Assembly (NCBI RefSeq): GCF_025165815.1
Contig: NZ_JAFFZE010000014.1
Location: 186,001 to 250,000, forward strand
Reading direction: 5' to 3'
Length of the DNA: 64,000 nt
DNA from: Actinophytocola gossypii
GTDB taxonomy: Bacteria > Actinomycetota > Actinomycetes > Mycobacteriales > Pseudonocardiaceae
In this document: piece by piece, positions 28,188-52,782 of the stretch
Position numbering within the stretch: the first letter of the stretch is position 1
Layout of the letters: the number at the start of each line of letters is the position of its first letter
The notes under the pieces: generated by a model
The model's input: only the letters and a program-made list of their open reading frames with translations
The model's database searches: none
Told to the model about the DNA's origin: nothing
Translations under genes and position numbers: made by a program

Positions 28188-28241
28188 GCGGAAGTGCTTC
28201 CATGGTCGTTACCCGTGGCGACTGCCCTACCTGGTGTCCTG

Positions 28242-28314
<73 letters not shown>

Positions 28315-45680: not shown

Positions 45681-46946
45681 CTACGGCGTGAGGCGGTGCA
45701 GGTCGCGCGGGAACAGGGTCGTCCACCGGACGTTGCCCAACCCGAGCAGCCGTGCCGTCCACCGCTCCAAACCCATCGCGAACCCACCATGTGGAGGCAT
45801 GCCATGCGTGAACACGTCCAGGTAGTCCCGATAGCCCGCGGGGTCCTCACCCCGCGCCAGCAACGCGGCGAGGTAGTCCGCGTGCCGGTGCAGCCGCTGC
45901 CCGCCGGTCACCAGTTCCAGGCCGCGGAACAGGAGGTCGAAACTGTTCGAGTAACCGGGCCGGTCCGGGTCCGGGTGCGTGTAGAACGGCCGCTTCGCCA
46001 TCGGGTACCCGGTGACGAACAGGAACTCCGACCCGTACGTGCGCACCGCCCACTCCGAGAGCCACCGCTCGTGCGCCGGCGCGAGGTCCGGCTCGCCGCG
46101 CGGGTCGTCGTCGGTGTGCCGGGCGATCAGCTCCTGCGCGTCGGCGAAGTGCACCGACGGGATCTCGGCCGGCACCTCCGGCACCGGCACGATCCCGGCG
46201 ACCGCGTCGACCATCCCGGCGACGGTCTCCCGCAGCACGGCCATCACGTCCCGGTGGTCGGTCACGAACCCGAGTTCCGCGTCGAGGCTCGTGTACTGCG
46301 CGAGGTGGCGGGCCGTGTCGTGCGGCTCGGCGCGGAACACCGGCCCCACCTCGTACACCCGCTCGAACACCCCCACCAACGCCTGCTTGAAGAACTGCGG
46401 CGACTGGGCGAGGTACGCCCGCCGCCCGAAGTAGTCGATGCCGAACACGTTCGCCCCGGACTCGGTCGCCGACGACACGATCTTCGGCGTGTGCGTCTCG
46501 GTGAACCCGAGACCGTCCAGTGTGGACCGAAAACCAGCCACGCTCGCGGCCGTCACCGCGAACCGCTCCCGCAACTTGGGATGCCGCAACGCGACCGGCG
46601 CGTGGTCGAGCACCGTGGGCAACGAGGCCGCCATGCCCGGCCGGTAGAGGTCGAACGGCGGCGGCACCGCCGGCTCGGACAGCGGCACGAACTCCGGCTC
46701 GGTCAGTTCGTACCCGCCGGGCGCCTGCTCGTTGGCGGTCACGGTGCCACGCACCTCGACCACGGTCTCCTCGGGCAACCCCGATTCCCCCGCGGAGCGC
46801 GACACGACCTGCGCCAACCCGGTCCGGTCCCGGACCACGACGAACGTCACGGACTTCAACTCACGCCGGCGGTGCACCCAACCGGCGATCTTCACCCGCT
46901 CGCCGACGTGCCGAGGCAGGTCGACGGCCAGAACACGAGAGATCAT
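45681..46946 (-). CDS. Archaeal-type aspartyl-tRNA synthetase
   Basis: A 421-residue class IIb synthetase without the insertion domain of bacterial AspRS (which is near 590 residues). The OB-fold anticodon domain comes first (VKIAGWVHRRRELKSVTFVV), then motif 2 VFRAEPHDTARHLAQYTSLD and motif 3 GFAMGLERWTARLLGL. The YTSLDAE continuation of motif 2 fits AspRS better than AsnRS, whose equivalent reads ..FWMxEPE. The upstream T-box specifier GAC also says Asp. ATG at 46946 is three nt after an in-frame GTG. It may be a second, stress- or inhibitor-responsive AspRS. Confidence 0.88.
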   Translation of the reverse strand: MISRVLAVDLPRHVGERVKIAGWVHRRRELKSVTFVVVRDRTGLAQVVSRSAGESGLPEETVVEVRGTVTANEQAPGGYELTEPEFVPLSEPAVPPPFDLYRPGMAASLPTVLDHAPVALRHPKLRERFAVTAASVAGFRSTLDGLGFTETHTPKIVSSATESGANVFGIDYFGRRAYLAQSPQFFKQALVGVFERVYEVGPVFRAEPHDTARHLAQYTSLDAELGFVTDHRDVMAVLRETVAGMVDAVAGIVPVPEVPAEIPSVHFADAQELIARHTDDDPRGEPDLAPAHERWLSEWAVRTYGSEFLFVTGYPMAKRPFYTHPDPDRPGYSNSFDLLFRGLELVTGGQRLHRHADYLAALLARGEDPAGYRDYLDVFTHGMPPHGGFAMGLERWTARLLGLGNVRWTTLFPRDLHRLTP

Positions 46947-46949
46947 CAC

Positions 46950-47200
46950 ACTCCCTGGTGGATTCGTGCACGATCCCTTGGGAGTGCGGGCGAGAAGGGA
47001 ACTCGCGGTGCCACCGCACTTTCACCACCGGCACGCCGGCAGCCTCATCATGGCCCGATCACGGTGGCCGACCGGCGGGGCATGGGGCGACGCCGTTCCT
47101 CCCCGCACTCAGGAGGGTCTTCGCCCGGGGCACGAGTCCGCCTTCCCAGCTACCGGCGGCTCTCTCCGACTCGTGTGCTCCCCGCGCTACTCGTCTCCGT
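46950..47200 (-). ncRNA. T-box riboswitch, Asp specifier, translational type
   Basis: On the minus strand Stem I starts with GGAG (complement of 47195-47198) and the AGTA loop-E element (47188-47191). The facing strand has GAA then the specifier GAC (47122-47117) before CTCC, which pairs with GGAG; the next helix pairs GCGCGGGG with CCCCGGGC at 7 of 8 positions. The T-box core TGGCACCGCGA (47013-47003) lies in a hairpin closed by GTGCGG and CCGCAC. Downstream CACTCCC is exactly complementary to the Shine-Dalgarno GGGAGTG two nt before the ATG, so uncharged tRNA-Asp should release the ribosome site. Confidence 0.85.
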
Positions 47201-47286
47201 CAACGCGTTGCCGCACAGGGTAAGCGCTCTCCTGCCGATCAGACTCGCGATTTTCCACCGCACCCGCCGAGCCGCGACCCGCCCAG

Positions 47287-47892
47287 TCAGCCGGCGGCGG
47301 CGTGGATCACGCTGTGGAGCGCGTCGGCGATGCGTCGGGCGGCGCGGTCGGGATCGGGTTGACCCGCGTCGAGCCAGGCGATGACGGCTTCGAGGGTGAA
47401 GGCGGGAATCAGGCGTGCCGCCCAGTCCTGCCAGGGACCGTCGGGGATCGACCCGGTGAGGTGGCGCTGGGCGATCTCGGTGGAGGTGGCGCGTAAGCCG
47501 TCGACGACATCACGGAACTCCGGCTCCCGGACGGCGTGCCGGAACAGCAGCCGAAAGCCGTCCGGGTCGTCCCCGGCGGCGCGCACCAGAGCGGGAACGG
47601 AGTCCTCGTCGTAGTTGCCGGTGCCCACGGAGCCGGTGAGGCGGTCGCAGGCCCGGTCGAGCACCGCGCGGTACAGCTCGTTCTTGGAGGTGAAATGCCG
47701 GTAGAGGATGACGTGGGTGACGCCTGCCTCGACGGCGACATCCTCGAGGCCGGTGGCGGCGTAGCCGGTGCGGGCGAAGGCGCGGGTGGCCGCGGCGAGG
47801 ATCTGCTCGCGTCGTTCGGCACGGGGAAGGCGGCGACCGGGCTCGGCTCGCGTCGCCGACGCGCCTCGGCGGTCGGGGTACTCGCGTGCCAT
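47287..47892 (-). CDS. TetR-family regulator
   Basis: A 201-residue repressor. HTH: REQILAAATRAFARTGYAATG and LEDVAVEAGVTHVILYRHF (about residues 27-68). The ligand domain ends AARRIADALHSVIHAA. ATG at 47892 has GAGGAGG at good spacing; a GTG two codons earlier is less suited. Divergent from a P450 gene with TACAAG repeats between them, so it likely represses both. Confidence 0.92.
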   Translation of the reverse strand: MAREYPDRRGASATRAEPGRRLPRAERREQILAAATRAFARTGYAATGLEDVAVEAGVTHVILYRHFTSKNELYRAVLDRACDRLTGSVGTGNYDEDSVPALVRAAGDDPDGFRLLFRHAVREPEFRDVVDGLRATSTEIAQRHLTGSIPDGPWQDWAARLIPAFTLEAVIAWLDAGQPDPDRAARRIADALHSVIHAAAG

Positions 47893-47903
47893 CGGCACCT
47901 CCT

Positions 47904-47970
47904 CTTGTACAGGTCGGAATATACAAGTAACGTTGTTAAGGAGTGCTTATACAAGAGCAAATAAACTTGT
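47904..47970. promoter_or_regulatory. TACAAG/CTTGTA repeats between tetR and P450
   Basis: CTTGTA (47904-47909) and TACAAG (47922-47927) form an inverted pair with a 12-bp gap; TACAAG recurs at 47950-47955 and CTTGT at 47966-47970. Both right-hand TACAAG copies are preceded by TA, giving TATACAAG 28 bp apart. The 88-bp gap thus holds two likely operator units, one for each divergent gene. Confidence 0.5.
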
Positions 47971-47980
47971 GGAGGCGATC

Positions 47981-49156
47981 GTGGATGCCCCGGTCCAGCT
48001 GCCTTTCGAGGAGACACATCCGCTGCGGGTCGCGCCGCGGCTGCGGCTGCTCCAGGCGCGGCAGTCGATCCATCGGGTGCGCACAGCCGTGGGGCACGAA
48101 GCGTGGCTGGTCACCGGACACGCGGAGGTACGGCACCTGCTGGACGACGACCGGCTGGGTCGCGCCCATCCCGATCCGGACACGGCGGCTCGGACCGGGG
48201 AGTCGGTGTTGTTCGGCGGCCCGCTCGGCGACTTCGACACCGAGCGGGCCGACCACGCGAGGATGAGGTCGCTGCTGAGGCCGCACTTCTCGCCCCGGCA
48301 CCTGCGTGCTCTCGGCGCCCGGGTGGAGACGTTGACCGCGCGGCTGCTCGACGAGTTGGCGGACCAGGGACCGCCGGCGGACCTGCACGCGGCGCTGGCG
48401 GTGCCGTTGCCGATCCTGGTGATCTGCGAGCTGCTCGGCGTGCCGTACGAGGACCGGGACCAGTTCCGCGGCTGGACCGCGGACGCCGCGAACACCCGCG
48501 ACCGTGCCCGGTCCGAGCGTGGGCTGGCCGAACTGTTCGGCTACGGACAGCGGCTGGTCGCCCGCAAACGCGAGGAGCCGGGTGACGACGTCATCTCACG
48601 GTTGTGTGCGACCGAGGGCGTCTCCGACGCCGAGGCCGCCGGCATGTCGATGGCCCTGCTGTTCGCGGGCCATGAGACCACGGTGGTGCAGATCGGCCTC
48701 GGGACGCTGATGGTGTTGGCCGACCGGGCTCAGTGGCAGGCCCTGGTGGACGACCCCGGTCTGGTCACGAACGCGGTGGAGGAGATGCTGCGGGCGCGGG
48801 CCAAGGGTGGCGGCGGCATCCCTCGGTACGCACGGACGGACCTGGTGATCGACGGCGTCACCGTGCGGGCCGGCGACCTGGTACTGCTGGACAACGGGGC
48901 GGCCAACCACGATCCGGCGATGTTCGCCGACCCGGACCGCCTGGACGTCACCCGGCCGGCCGGCGCGCACCTGACGTTCGGGCACGGTGCGCGGTACTGC
49001 CTCGGGGCTCCACTGGCCCGGATCGAACTGTCGGCCGTGTTCTCGCAGCTCGTGGCCAGGTTCCCGACGCTGCGCCTGGCCGTGGACGTCGAGGACGTGC
49101 GGACACGCCGCGACGTGGTCACCGGCGGCCTGGTCGAACTGCCGGTGCGGTGGTAG
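47981..49156 (+). CDS. Cytochrome P450
   Basis: A 391-residue P450. I-helix MALLFAGHETTVVQIG has the canonical AGHETT, K-helix ExxR in VEEMLRARAKGGGG, heme loop LTFGHGARYCLGAPLA with Cys340. The residues after ExxR are unusually glycine-rich (AKGGGGIPRYA); most P450s have bulkier residues that line the substrate pocket. GTG at 47981 has GGAGG; reading further upstream enters the tetR promoter. Controlled by the divergent TetR. No redox partner gene adjacent. Confidence 0.93.
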   Translation: MDAPVQLPFEETHPLRVAPRLRLLQARQSIHRVRTAVGHEAWLVTGHAEVRHLLDDDRLGRAHPDPDTAARTGESVLFGGPLGDFDTERADHARMRSLLRPHFSPRHLRALGARVETLTARLLDELADQGPPADLHAALAVPLPILVICELLGVPYEDRDQFRGWTADAANTRDRARSERGLAELFGYGQRLVARKREEPGDDVISRLCATEGVSDAEAAGMSMALLFAGHETTVVQIGLGTLMVLADRAQWQALVDDPGLVTNAVEEMLRARAKGGGGIPRYARTDLVIDGVTVRAGDLVLLDNGAANHDPAMFADPDRLDVTRPAGAHLTFGHGARYCLGAPLARIELSAVFSQLVARFPTLRLAVDVEDVRTRRDVVTGGLVELPVRW

Positions 49157-49181
49157 CGGATCCGTGGCCAGGCCATGCGCG

Positions 49182-50162
49182 TCAGTGCCGCGCCGCGTGG
49201 GTCATGGCGGTGAGCAGTGTTCGCGCGCCGTCGGTGGCGGTGTAGAGGACGCTGTGGCCGTCCTGCCGGCGGGTGACCAGGCCGTCGGCGTCCAGGCGGG
49301 TCAGGTGGTACGACACCGTGGCCGGGCTGAGGTGGTGGCGGGTGGCCAGTTCCGAGGTCGACCGCGGGGTGTCCAGGTCCGCCAGCAGGGCGACGCGGCG
49401 GGCGCTCAGCTTCGGTGCGCCGAGCACGCGCCCCGGGGACGCCCAGACCGCGCCTCTGCCGCGGGCCGGGTAGCCCAACAGCACGTCGCCGGGTGCGCCG
49501 TTCCACACCGCGGGCCACGGCAGGAACACCGAGGGGGTGAGAACCGGACCGGGCACGGGCTCGGCCACCAGGTCGTACGCGGACTCCTTGGTGAGCACGG
49601 CGCCGTCCCAGCGCAGGGTCGGGTGCAGGTCGCCGAGGATGCGGGCGAGGCCGACCCGGGCGGCGTTGGCGGCGCGGTGCCGCACGTCCTCGTCCAGGAC
49701 CCGGCGCAGGGCAGGCCACGAGTCGGCGAGCGTGGCGTGCCAGCAGTGGCGCAGCTGCTCGGCGGCGGACTCGGCCACGGCGCGTTCCCCACCCCGGTCG
49801 AGGACGGCGGCCACCGCCGGGGGCAGCGGGCTGCCCGGGAACGCGCGCTCCAGGTGGTCCCGCACGGTCCCGGGCGGCGTGGTCGCCACGGCCTCCAGCT
49901 CGGCGTCCAGGGTGGGCTCGTACTCCGCCGGGAGCGGCACCAGGAAGTCCGGCACGTACGCGGACTCGGGCTCCACCAGCGCGTGCACCAGCGACACCGC
50001 GTCCCGATCCACGCGCGGCCTCGTGGACGCCACCCACCGGGCCGCGAACGGCGCGCGGGCCGGGTGGGTCAGCACCTCCAGCGCGCAGGACAGCTCCGCC
50101 AGCCGGGACAGCGCGAACCGGGAGCCGGCCAGCCGCTCGGGACCGACCCGCACGGTCAGCAC
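49182..50162 (-). CDS. ArsR-type winged-helix regulator, DUF5937 family
   Basis: A 326-residue protein in which the DNA-binding domain is at the C terminus: LSARRVALLADLDTPRSTSE then LATRHHLSPATVSYHLTRLDADGLVTRR (about residues 240-300). The long N-terminal half (LAGSRFALSRLAELSCALEV) matches the DUF5937 extension that precedes ArsR domains in actinobacteria and may bind a ligand. GTG start at 50162. Divergent from a metallo-hydrolase gene, which it probably represses. Confidence 0.85.
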   Translation of the reverse strand: MLTVRVGPERLAGSRFALSRLAELSCALEVLTHPARAPFAARWVASTRPRVDRDAVSLVHALVEPESAYVPDFLVPLPAEYEPTLDAELEAVATTPPGTVRDHLERAFPGSPLPPAVAAVLDRGGERAVAESAAEQLRHCWHATLADSWPALRRVLDEDVRHRAANAARVGLARILGDLHPTLRWDGAVLTKESAYDLVAEPVPGPVLTPSVFLPWPAVWNGAPGDVLLGYPARGRGAVWASPGRVLGAPKLSARRVALLADLDTPRSTSELATRHHLSPATVSYHLTRLDADGLVTRRQDGHSVLYTATDGARTLLTAMTHAARH

Positions 50163-50180
50163 GGCCGGACCCGCCCGGGA

Positions 50181-50196
50181 TTCGACGTTCCTCGAA
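50181..50196. promoter_or_regulatory. Inverted repeat between arsR-type and MBL genes
   Basis: TTCGA-CGTTCC-TCGAA is an inverted repeat in the 108-bp divergent gap, 18 bp upstream of the regulator start. The form and location suit an operator of the DUF5937 regulator. Confidence 0.4.
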
Positions 50197-50270
50197 TCGC
50201 TCGCACCGGACCGGCACCCCCTGATCGACTTCCTCGCACCGGAGTATCGCAAAGGACCGAGGAGACCGAC

Positions 50271-51212
50271 ATGACCAACCAGGTGCGACGACGCACGTTC
50301 CTGCTCGGCGGAGCGACCGCCGGACTGGCCGCGGCCGGTCTCACCACGCCCACCGCTGCCGCCGTGCGGGCGTCGGGCAGCGCGACGATGGCGGCCGGGC
50401 CGTTCCAGGTCGTCGCGCTGCTGGACGCCACCGGCCCGTTCTTCCTCCCCGCCGAGGAGGCGTTCAGCGGCGCCACGTCCCGGGACTGGACCGGCGCGAG
50501 GCGGGTCGACCCGGACGCCTTCGGTCCGGACGGCACCTGGAACCTGGACTTCCGCTGCTTCGCGATCCGGCTCCCGGCGGGCGGCTTCGCGCTCGTCGAC
50601 GCCGGGGTGGGACCGGCCGAGAGTCCGGCGTCGGCGTGGGCGCCGGTGCCCGGGCACCTGCTGGAACGCCTGACCGAGACCGGCATCGACCGCGCGGACG
50701 TCCGGCTGGTCGTGCTGACACACCTGCATGAGGACCACTTCGGCTGGTCGGTGTCGCCCGACGGGGTGCCGTACTTCCCGAACGCGCGGTACGTGGTGCA
50801 GCGGACCGAGATCCGCGCGCTGGAGCAGGCGGGCGACGACGTGGTGCTCCCCTATGTCGTGGACCCGCTGCGCCGGACCGGGCAGCTGGACACCGTCGAC
50901 GGCGACGTGTGTCTGGCCCGCGGCCGGGGCGGCGCGGTGTCCACGATCCCGACACCCGGGCACACGCCGGGCCACCAGTCCGTCGTGGTGCGCGGACACG
51001 GGCGCCGCGTCGTGATCACCGGTGACGTTCTGGTGCACGCCGTGCAGCTGGTGGACCCGGACGTCGGCTACGCCTTCGAGGCCGACCAGGACGTGGCGCG
51101 GGGAACCAGACGGAGCCTGCTCGAGGACGCCGAGCGGGGCCGGACGTGGCTGGCGACCGCGCACCTCAGGACCCCGTTCGTCCGCGCGGACGCGTATCCC
51201 CGGCACCGCTGA
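50271..51212 (+). CDS. Tat-exported metallo-beta-lactamase-fold hydrolase
   Basis: A 313-residue secreted protein. Twin-arginine signal VRRRTFLLGGATAGLAAAGL at the N terminus. Zinc motif LTHLHEDHFGW (HxHxDH, about residues 149-156), PTPGHTPGHQSV with the third His, ITGDVLVHAVQL with the bridging Asp, and a late His in TAHLRTPF. Family members hydrolyse lactones, lactams or thioesters; N-acyl homoserine lactonases share this form, but the specific substrate is not evident. SD GGAGA six nt upstream of ATG. Confidence 0.9.
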   Translation: MTNQVRRRTFLLGGATAGLAAAGLTTPTAAAVRASGSATMAAGPFQVVALLDATGPFFLPAEEAFSGATSRDWTGARRVDPDAFGPDGTWNLDFRCFAIRLPAGGFALVDAGVGPAESPASAWAPVPGHLLERLTETGIDRADVRLVVLTHLHEDHFGWSVSPDGVPYFPNARYVVQRTEIRALEQAGDDVVLPYVVDPLRRTGQLDTVDGDVCLARGRGGAVSTIPTPGHTPGHQSVVVRGHGRRVVITGDVLVHAVQLVDPDVGYAFEADQDVARGTRRSLLEDAERGRTWLATAHLRTPFVRADAYPRHR

Positions 51213-51223
51213 GTGTTCAGGCG

Positions 51224-52585
51224 CTAGCAGCCGAGGAGTTGGCCGCCGAGGTAGTTCTCCAGCTTGTCGACCGAGATGCGCTGCTGGACCATCGAGTCGC
51301 GCTCGCGGACGGTGACCGCGTGGTCGTTGAGGGAGTCGAAGTCGACGGTCACGCAGAACGGGGTGCCGATCTCGTCCTGCCGGCGGTAGCGGCGGCCGAT
51401 CGCGCCCGCGTCGTCGAAGTCGACGTTCCAGTGGCGGCGCAGCGCGGCCGCGATGTCCCGAGCCTTCGGCGTCAGGTCCGCGTTGCGGGACAACGGGAGC
51501 ACCGCCACCTTCACCGGAGCCAGCCGCCGGTCCAGGCTCAGCACCGCGCGCTTGTCGACGCCGCCCTTGGCGTTCGGGGCCTCGTCCTCGCGGTACGCGT
51601 CGAGCAGGAACGCCATCAGCGGGCGCCCGACGCCGGCGGCCGGCTCGATCACGAACGGGCGGTACCGGGAGCTGGTCGACTGGTCGAAGTACGACAGGTC
51701 GACCCCGGAGTGGTTGGCGTGCGTGGTGAGGTCGAAGTCGGTGCGGTTGGCGACACCTTCCAGCTCGCCCCACTCCAGGCCGCCGAACTCGAAGCGGTAC
51801 TCGATGTCGACCGTGCGCTTCGCGTAGTGCGCGAGCTTCTCGGCCGGGTGCTCGTAGAGGCGCAGGTTCTCCCGGCGGATCCCGAGGTCGGTGTACCAGC
51901 GCAGGCGCTCGTCGATCCAGTACTGGTGCCATTCCTCGTCAGAGCCCGGCTCGACGAAGAACTCAAGCTCCATCTGCTCGAACTCCCGGGTGCGGAACAC
52001 GAAGTTCCCCGGCGTGATCTCGTTGCGGAACGACTTGCCGATCTGCCCGATGCCGAACGGGGGCTTGCGTCTGGACGTCGTCAGCACGTTGAGGAAGTTC
52101 ACGAAGATGCCCTGCGCGGTCTCCGGCCGCAGGTAGTGCAGGCCCTCGTCGGTCTCAACCGGGCCGAGGTGGGTCCGCAGCATCATGTTGAACTCGCGCG
52201 GCGGCGTGTACTCGCCGACCGCCCCGCAGTCCGGGCACGGCACCTCGGCCAGGTCGGCGACCCCGTGCTCCTCGGCGAGCTGGTCGGCCCGGAACCTGCG
52301 GTGGCACGCCGTGCACTCGACCAGCGGGTCGTGGAACGCCGTGACGTGCCCCGAGGCCTCCCACACCTGCCTGGGCAGGATCACCGACGAGTCGAGCCCG
52401 ACGACGTCCTCGCGGCGGTGCACCACCGTCCGCCACCACTCGCGCTTGATGTTGTCCTTGAGCTCGACGCCGAGCGGCCCGTAGTCCCAGGCCGAGCGGG
52501 TGCCGCCGTAGATCTCACCGCAGGGGTAGACGAACCCGCGCCGCTTGCACAGGCTGACGACGGTCTCGACGCGATCGGCGGGCAT
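51224..52585 (-). CDS. glyS: Glycyl-tRNA synthetase
   Basis: A 453-residue alpha2-type class II Gly[22 protein letters not shown] at the N terminus, motif 2 [21 protein letters not shown], motif 3 [18 protein letters not shown], and the C-terminal anticodon domain ([32 protein letters not shown]). A CxxC pair (CTACHRRF and CPDCGAVG) indicates a bound zinc. ATG at 52585. In M. tuberculosis glyS is likewise divergent from smtB-zur. Confidence 0.97.
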
Positions 52586-52782
52586 GGGCACTCCAACTGC
52601 GGTGCGCTCGGGGCCAGGGCGTTCAATAGGGGCCGCGCCGGACGATCGTGGACCCCAGACAGTGGGCACAGCCGCCACAGCCTAGCCCCAGCCCACGCTC
52701 CACGAACGGGCGACAGATTGGGCCGAATGCGCGCGGCTGGCGTTGCGGAATGTAATTTGCAAAGCGTCCGATAGGAGGACAA

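Follow-up and report, generated by a model that had tools for sequence, protein, structure and literature searches.

A T-box leader with an aspartate specifier before a second, archaeal-type aspartyl-tRNA synthetase gene in Actinophytocola gossypii

The window considered here, a stretch of 64,000 nucleotides of the Actinophytocola gossypii genome (contig NZ_JAFFZE010000014.1, positions 186,001 to 250,000), carries on its minus strand, at 45681..46946, the gene aspS2. Its product of 421 residues, counted from the ATG, was assigned to the archaeal-type aspartyl-tRNA synthetases (AspRS) with the NF003483 and Pfam models in a checked reading frame, and is predicted to be non-discriminating. The leader of this gene, at 47212-46947 on the same strand, is a T-box riboswitch. 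Comparison with relatives suggests that translation probably starts at the ATG at 46946-46944, and not at the GTG at 46949 with which the frame mechanically begins. Upstream of the T-box gene, positions 47287-51212 hold divergent genes for a TetR regulator and a cytochrome P450, followed by those for a DUF5937/ArsR-type regulator and a protein of the metallo-beta-lactamase fold. At 51224-52678, about 4 kb from aspS2 and on the same strand, there is a glycyl-tRNA synthetase gene (NF003211, 657 bits), at which a genome-wide T-box search found no T-box. The window also contains, at 28241..28314 (minus strand), a tRNA-Asn(GUU) with a U1-A72 pair and G73, presumed to be a second substrate of AspRS2 but not of the switch.

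The family models bear out the archaeal type that the original prediction had assigned to the enzyme. AspS2 scores 512.3 bits with NF003483 (cut-off 353) and remains under the cut-offs of the bacterial AspRS model TIGR00459 (136.5 against 373.85) and of TIGR00458 (327.3 against 368.4), as well as far under that of the AsnRS model. At E 1e-5 its only Pfam domains are the class II D/K/N core (PF00152) and the OB anticodon domain (PF01336), and the GAD insertion of bacterial enzymes is absent, as befits the archaeal type. Among solved chains AspS2 comes closest to 1n9w, which bears the title non-discriminating archaeal-type AspRS 2; we take 1n9w and 3kfu to be the archaeal-type non-discriminating AspRS2 of T. 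thermophilus, and 3nel is presumably the AspRS of T. kodakarensis. At two positions that we assume to govern tRNA discrimination by AspRS, the alignments place H and P in AspS2, as in 1n9w, against W and K in 3nel. Among 81 AspS2-type proteins, H is found in 76 (3 not parsed) and P in 75 (5 not parsed), the exceptions being L026 with Q, L040 with Y and L087 with A. These residues suggest that AspRS2 is probably non-discriminating and charges tRNA-Asn too, which would leave the sensing of Asp by the leader unrefuted, since the RNA reads the anticodon.

The proposal that aspS2 is a second copy also stands, as the genome encodes a bacterial-type AspRS on contig C41 (611-aa frame, 695 bits with TIGR00459). 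GatB was found in a check for GatCAB, and no AsnRS scored over its cut-off in the genome; the housekeeping AspRS must therefore already serve both tRNA-Asp and tRNA-Asn. A third class IIb gene, on contig C28 with a 510-aa frame, is probably a LysRS. Bacterial AspRS is likewise over the cut-off in 35 of the 36 relatives' genomes that could be searched (for 37 of the 80 loci, that of L082 included), the exception being Fodinicola (L071, G423), in which it is present in pieces. An account whose accessible text draws no link to T-boxes (PMC4206432) records extra AspRSs for 15 genera beyond Deinococcus-Thermus; AsnRS is missing from 10 of these, which are primarily Actinomycetales.

The T-box core proposed for the leader is recovered by the Rfam covariance model RF00230, which is matched over its entire length (1-219 of 219) at 47212-46983 (-) with 60.3 bits and E 1.1e-12, in a search of 551 bases with permissive filters; the same place appears in a genome-wide search at E 3.4e-12. 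As the score is below the curated gathering score of 93, a default Rfam scan misses the leader, and by Rfam's own cut-off it is unlisted. The feature is real, although the interval first given for it, 46950..47200, is slightly short at both ends compared with 46947-47212. The genome-wide search (7.38 Mb, 53 contigs) found one further T-box, on contig C50 before ileS; the 488 residues of its product that were compared have TIGR00392 as their best family at 525 bits, under the full-length cut-off.

Stem I, at 47105..47212 (minus strand), is of the long form according to the Rfam alignment, an RNAalifold consensus and covariation, and its parts are, if we name the motifs correctly, a K-turn-like GA motif, a loop E, an AG bulge (AGAGAG) and a distal loop. 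With AG bulge and distal loop in place, it is not the shortened Stem I, devoid of the elbow-binding part, of most class II T-boxes. The RNAalifold consensus on 46 rows (45 chosen loci and the window) has 21 pairs, 14 of them with double compensatory changes, and a covariation of 0.353 against 0.165 for shuffled alignments; none of 500 shuffles reaches this value, and slid alignments attain at most 0.108. Plain folding gives the leader no more stability than shuffled sequences have (z -0.26), nor does the minimum-energy fold of the entire leader show the T-box fold; the evidence for the leader is homology and covariation and not stability. The loop-E AGUA (47188..47191, minus strand), invariant in the 46-row alignment, faces the specifier, and the arrangement originally proposed, AGTA (47191-47188) opposite GAA (47122-47120) and GAC (47119-47117), proved correct on checking. 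Covarying helices on either side place GAC in an internal loop that is itself supported by covariation.

The specifier codon GAC (Asp; 47117..47119, minus strand), which follows GAA, was compared across the best 80 of 123 enzyme relatives, taken from named genomes, and at 79 of these 80 aspS2 loci a T-box leader is readable; L082, a MAG locus with a 55% identical enzyme, is without T-box motif and has at most 11.5 bits with the Stem I model. The 79 leaders from the best 80 of 123 relatives have GAC in 77 cases, GAT in one (L087) and AAC in one (L077). An Asp codon in 78 of 79 bears out the Asp specificity originally proposed and excludes, by comparison, an alternative specifier codon. The T-box bulge UGGC (47010..47013, minus strand), located by its position and the tRNA-Asp sequence, is complementary to the tRNA 3' end GCCA; the same 79 leaders (best 80 of 123 relatives) have UGGC in 68 and UGGU in 11. 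The tRNA-Asp of the genome, with anticodon GUC and discriminator G73, fits both the GAC specifier and UGGC, and as the tRNA-Asn of the window has G73 as well, only the specifier distinguishes Asp from Asn. The base 3' of the specifier is C in the window and A in 46 and C in 33 of the 79 relatives (best 80 of 123), against the purine described for this position in the available text of PMC7583486.

Downstream, the antisequestrator occupies 46984..47019 (minus strand), as judged from the Rfam alignment, folding and a pairing check of 23 rows. On the minus strand, its helix A1 joins GUGCGG (47019-47014) with CCGCAC (46989-46984) and helix A2 joins GCGAG (47006-47002) with CUCGC (46994-46990); 100% of A1 cells and 99% of A2 cells are paired in the 23 rows, with compensatory changes. 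Overlapping the 3' strand of A1 is the anti-Shine-Dalgarno segment CGCACUCCC (DNA CGCACTCCC; 46980..46988, minus strand), and the Shine-Dalgarno (SD) region GGGAGUGUG (DNA GGGAGTGTG; 46947..46955, minus strand) was recognised by position and a pairing check. The match between the two that had been noticed in the original prediction is real, and extends to nine contiguous pairs (46988-46980 with 46955-46947) at a predicted -17.0 kcal/mol. Over 80 leaders, the window included, the anti-SD/SD energy has a mean of -11.3 and a range of -20.0 to -5.6 kcal/mol, stronger than with shuffled SD segments (mean -7.5, sd 3.0), although the duplex is weaker than that shuffled mean in eight of the 80; the start codons for this comparison were picked by a script, and a few (e.g. 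that of L026) may be wrong. A swap of anti-SD against SD classes was not discriminating, most SD segments being alike, so that this control is uninformative and is not counted as covariation.

The anti-SD/SD helix and the 3' strand of A1 share CGCAC, and the two helices are thus mutually exclusive. Forced folds give -34.8 kcal/mol for the OFF state and -33.6 for the ON state, a difference of 1.2 that is expected of a poised switch. The ON state is not cleanly open in the RNAfold model, because seven of the nine SD-region bases remain paired there, forming a hairpin with the bases that follow the anti-SD on its 3' side. GGGAUC (46977-46972), 3' of the anti-SD, is also complementary to GAUCUC (46944-46939) at the start codon, and in the Asanoa leaders L072 and L073 the start region seems to have a complement in another part of the leader; masking of the start codon by leader segments is possible.

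Because the antisequestrator and SD helices exclude each other and no terminator-like site was found in 46900-47330, control of aspS2 is predicted to be translational, and to this extent, as a prediction, the original proposal holds. A long Stem I would be more typical of a T-box that acts on transcription through a terminator (PMC7583486, accessible sections), but the segment complementary to the SD occupies the terminator's place, where nothing terminator-like lies between 46900 and 47330, and we give this reading next to no credence. The long Stem I is also compatible with the translational class, since the available text of PMC7583486 describes a few translational T-boxes that keep the canonical long form. 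What the switch reads could be disputed on other grounds: the enzyme is of the non-discriminating type, the GAA adjoining GAC could be taken as a Glu codon, and the leader of L077 (2224-2335, from a Gaiellasilicea MAG) has AAC (Asn) rather than GAC before an archaeal-type AspRS, all of which might speak for an Asn or two-codon T-box, as reported for Clostridium acetobutylicum, instead of one for Asp only. The in-frame position is nevertheless GAC in 77 of 79 leaders (best 80 of 123 relatives). GAA also precedes the codon in Ser and Ile leaders, and its presence before Asp, Ser and Ile codons alike marks it as a structural element and not a Glu codon. We consider an Asn or two-codon switch very improbable.

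A further element of the switching domain is a pseudoknot (46974..47001, minus strand), supported by covariation, between the A2 loop UUCCCUU (47001-46995) and AAGGGA (46979-46974), which sits immediately 3' of the anti-SD. In an alignment of 23 rows, picked to take in divergent members, the six pseudoknot pairs have a covariation of 0.369 against 0.168 for shuffled alignments, a value that none of 500 shuffles reaches and that compares with 0.150 for the best slid alignment. Double changes, present in five of the six pairs, are reached by 6 of 500 shuffles and further pair types by 9 of 500, so that two of the five measures are less extreme. Of the cells, 83% pair; the outermost position is largely open, being unpaired in 12 of 20 rows. 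A set of 74 further leaders, from the window's family and from Streptomycetaceae (the family of G182, its name inferred from named loci), has four to six contiguous pairs with the A2 loop in all 72 that could be parsed (L179 and L181 were not), which speaks for conservation rather than covariation, most of them being identical in this sequence. The claim rests on the aligned test, because a swap control was weak (4.7 bp observed, 4.3 swapped and 2.9 shuffled, over 46 distinct types), the segments being alike. The parser of that control misread L048, L076, L079, L087 and L099, and in L079 and L087 a CCUC/GAGG pairing is visible by eye; L105 has no clear A2-loop pairing.

By energy the A2 loop could pair equally with the SD and with AAGGGA (-7.8 each). 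A rough parse of 12 ileS leaders gave three to five contiguous pairs in scattered places, and because of this scatter we take these leaders, with reserve, to lack the pseudoknot. No antisequestrator-loop pseudoknot was found described in the literature searched, which included few subscription papers, and the one mention of a pseudoknot in the accessible text on TBDB concerns Stem IIA/B (PMC7778990). We would guess that the loop pseudoknot determines how the two states are balanced or in which order they fold.

Far from being an isolated case, the leader belongs to a family that includes a sibling for Ser. Searches with R1, the Stem I covariance model used on genomes, matched 60 of the 297 Streptomycetaceae genomes at 72 places, 64 of which have at least 65 bits; by best tblastn match these 64 go with AspS2 in 21 cases, AspS3 in 30, serS in 11, a serS remnant in one (L101) and nothing recognised in one (L190). 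AspS3 is a second archaeal-type AspRS lineage, 39% identical to the AspS2 of the window, with 3nel as its best solved match. When 99 Stem I sequences are aligned with the structure as guide, the specifier tracks the enzyme, with GAC in 17 of 17 AspS3 leaders, UCC in 12 of 12 Ser leaders (the remnant included) and AUC in 12 of 12 Ile leaders. A tree of the leaders, of low support, puts the Ser leaders within the Asp ones, with 11 of the 12 grouped together, but does not establish the direction of the specifier change.

Several individual loci add detail to this family. UCC leaders stand before serS at L099, L160, L164, L168, L173, L176, L177, L178, L182, L185 and L189, and L101 (1501-1750), where a UCC Stem I is followed almost directly by an apparent serS C-terminal end, reads as the deletion scar of a T-box-serS unit. 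At L190 (2718-2843, minus strand) an Asp-type Stem I of 65.5 bits carries GACGG where the specifier is expected, and tblastn matches no synthetase downstream of it; this is a possible orphan leader. In the long-Stem-I ileS T-boxes L106-L119 the loop GAAGAUCA differs by one base from the Asp loop GAAGACA, and we mention purely as an idea that a one-base deletion might turn the former into the latter, and Ile into Asp reading. The synthetase genes of L155, L163, L135, L178, L201 and L203 are interrupted or without their middle part in tblastn, which may reflect either pseudogenes or sequencing errors.

In 394 genomes of the class, R1 matches 71, at 74 places. Of the 16 places with at least 74 bits, 14 lie before AspRS, one before serS and one before only the 3' end of serS; below that score there are 58 places, and each of the 14 among them that were inspected lies before an ileS-like gene. 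The window's family is represented by 249 genomes, of which 34 have a strong T-box match (at least 88 bits), two more reaching 27-28 bits, and 39 an archaeal-type AspRS over the cut-off. T-box and enzyme occur together in 33 of these genomes, the T-box without the enzyme in one, the enzyme without the T-box in six, and neither in 209. The T-box-only genome (G867) has an interrupted enzyme frame, whereas the enzyme-only genomes comprise one whose 73% orthologue lacks the T-box (G898), two with interrupted AspS2-like genes without T-box (G733, G875) and three whose enzyme is nearer the other AspRS lineage (G756, G836, G886). Only two of the six listed genomes of the window's genus carry T-box and archaeal-type AspRS; aspS2 is an accessory gene. 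The leader tail of L066 resembles that of Kibdelosporangium (L046), and a gene transfer from Kibdelosporangium to L066 was considered and dropped, since the L066 genome, at 12.4 Mb, bears a doubtful label, Rhodococcus rhodnii.

We consider it highly probable that the leader, taken as a whole mechanism, is a translational T-box riboswitch for tRNA-Asp which controls a spare AspRS. Homology, specifier, bulge match, exclusive helices, covariation and the status of aspS2 as a second AspRS gene are computed, and tRNA binding and the direction of switching are put forward by analogy. While tRNA-Asp is charged, CGCACUCCC would pair with GGGAGUGUG and the SD sequence would be hidden. Uncharged tRNA-Asp would pair its GUC anticodon with the GAC specifier and its GCCA end with UGGC, and its binding would stabilise A1/A2, which uses the same CGCAC, so that the ribosome site would be freed. 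AspRS2 would then be made beside the bacterial AspRS and restore Asp-tRNA-Asp, and would probably also supply Asp-tRNA-Asn for GatCAB.

Why a spare AspRS should be kept under such a switch may be explained in two ways, to which we attach similar weight. AspRS2 may be a reserve for starvation and a helper of transamidation, securing Asp- and Asn-tRNA in aspartate shortage and feeding GatCAB; this is quite possible, if short of probable. It agrees with the H and P residues prevalent among the 81 AspS2-type proteins, with the title of the best solved match (1n9w), with GatB in the genome and with the U1-A72 pair of the tRNA-Asn, a pair required by the bacterial GatCAB (PMC4206432, available text). 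Against it, the switch reads Asp and not Asn in 78 of 79 leaders (best 80 of 123 relatives), the housekeeping AspRS must, without AsnRS, already serve both tRNAs, and the serS siblings are left unexplained. Those siblings, in which the same kind of switch controls serS, fit better with self-protection, whereby AspRS2 would be a copy insensitive to inhibitors, and the T-box would induce it once tRNA-Asp is emptied by an AspRS inhibitor, the cell's own or a neighbour's. The patchy presence of the system, down to two of six genomes in the window's genus, points the same way, as does the occurrence of two archaeal-type AspRS lineages, 39% identical, behind one kind of switch. Antibiotic producers are reported to carry an insensitive second SerRS, IleRS or TrpRS (PMC9437257, accessible text), and a nucleoside sulfamate from Streptomyces hits several synthetases including AspRS, in Plasmodium (PMC12262901, accessible text). 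No neighbour gene, however, is kept beyond single genera in the 14 widest neighbour clusters (2.5 kb flanks): the two clusters that span genera are frames lying over the leader and over the final part of aspS2, and the others are largely from Nonomuraea; with neighbours not conserved across genera in these flanks, no linked biosynthetic cluster is seen. Self-protection is a possibility that we hold tentatively.

A broader and rather unlikely conjecture is that the unit is a transferable 'spare synthetase' module of actinomycetes, in which a long-Stem-I, pseudoknotted translational T-box has its specifier re-coded (Asp GAC, Asn AAC, Ser UCC) for each extra synthetase. The two archaeal-type AspRS lineages and SerRS would then be inducible bypasses against natural inhibitors of the housekeeping enzyme, and the loop pseudoknot an undescribed part of the switching domain. 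Whatever its role, the family is a natural series on one scaffold, with members that read Asp or Ser, a single one that reads Asn and more distant ones that read Ile, and it makes the re-coding of specifiers directly testable. The covarying extra pseudoknot is relevant to the equilibrium between the two states of translational T-boxes. A genome in which a sensor of uncharged tRNA controls a spare AspRS or SerRS bears a signature that may be followed in the search for natural inhibitors of synthetases and for self-protection against them.

Translational ileS T-boxes of Actinobacteria were reportedly treated by Sherwood in 2015, and Saad, in 2012 and 2013, is said to have dealt with a C. acetobutylicum T-box with an Asn or two-codon reading. 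In the literature searched, which included few subscription papers, we found no Asp T-box in Actinobacteria. The original prediction had held that translational T-boxes of this phylum are documented mainly for ileS; the description for ileS stands (Seliverstov 2005, PMC1262725; PMC7583486; PMC2494555, all in their accessible parts), but for actinobacterial T-boxes his genes are named too (PMC9413887, accessible part). Those ileS T-boxes share with the window leader the core, predicted SD sequestration without terminator and a synthetase target (PMC1262725, accessible part), whereas the window leader differs in its Asp specifier, its spare archaeal-type AspRS target and, as far as the rough parse of 12 ileS leaders shows, its A2-loop pseudoknot. 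In C. acetobutylicum, the T-box lies on one of three aspS and a transamidation operon (PMC2494555, accessible part), and an extra AspRS under a T-box is common to both systems, that of the window being for Asp, before a single gene, predicted to be translational, and in Actinobacteria. In the TBDB collection GAC makes up 94% of Asp specifiers, and its in-frame rule yields GAC for the window leader too; as TBDB searched actinobacterial reference genomes with a class II model of its own (PMC7778990, accessible part), it may list such actinobacterial Asp leaders, while the window leader is under the gathering score of RF00230. The AspRS2 enzymes 1n9w and 3kfu resemble that of the window, the closest solved chain being 1n9w and H and P at the signature positions being common to both, although the window enzyme is of an actinobacterial lineage and the likeness is one of enzymes. 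Set beside these systems, the window leader is a T-box variant that reads Asp, has a long Stem I, is predicted to act on translation, contains a pseudoknot, goes with spare synthetases and has a sibling for Ser.
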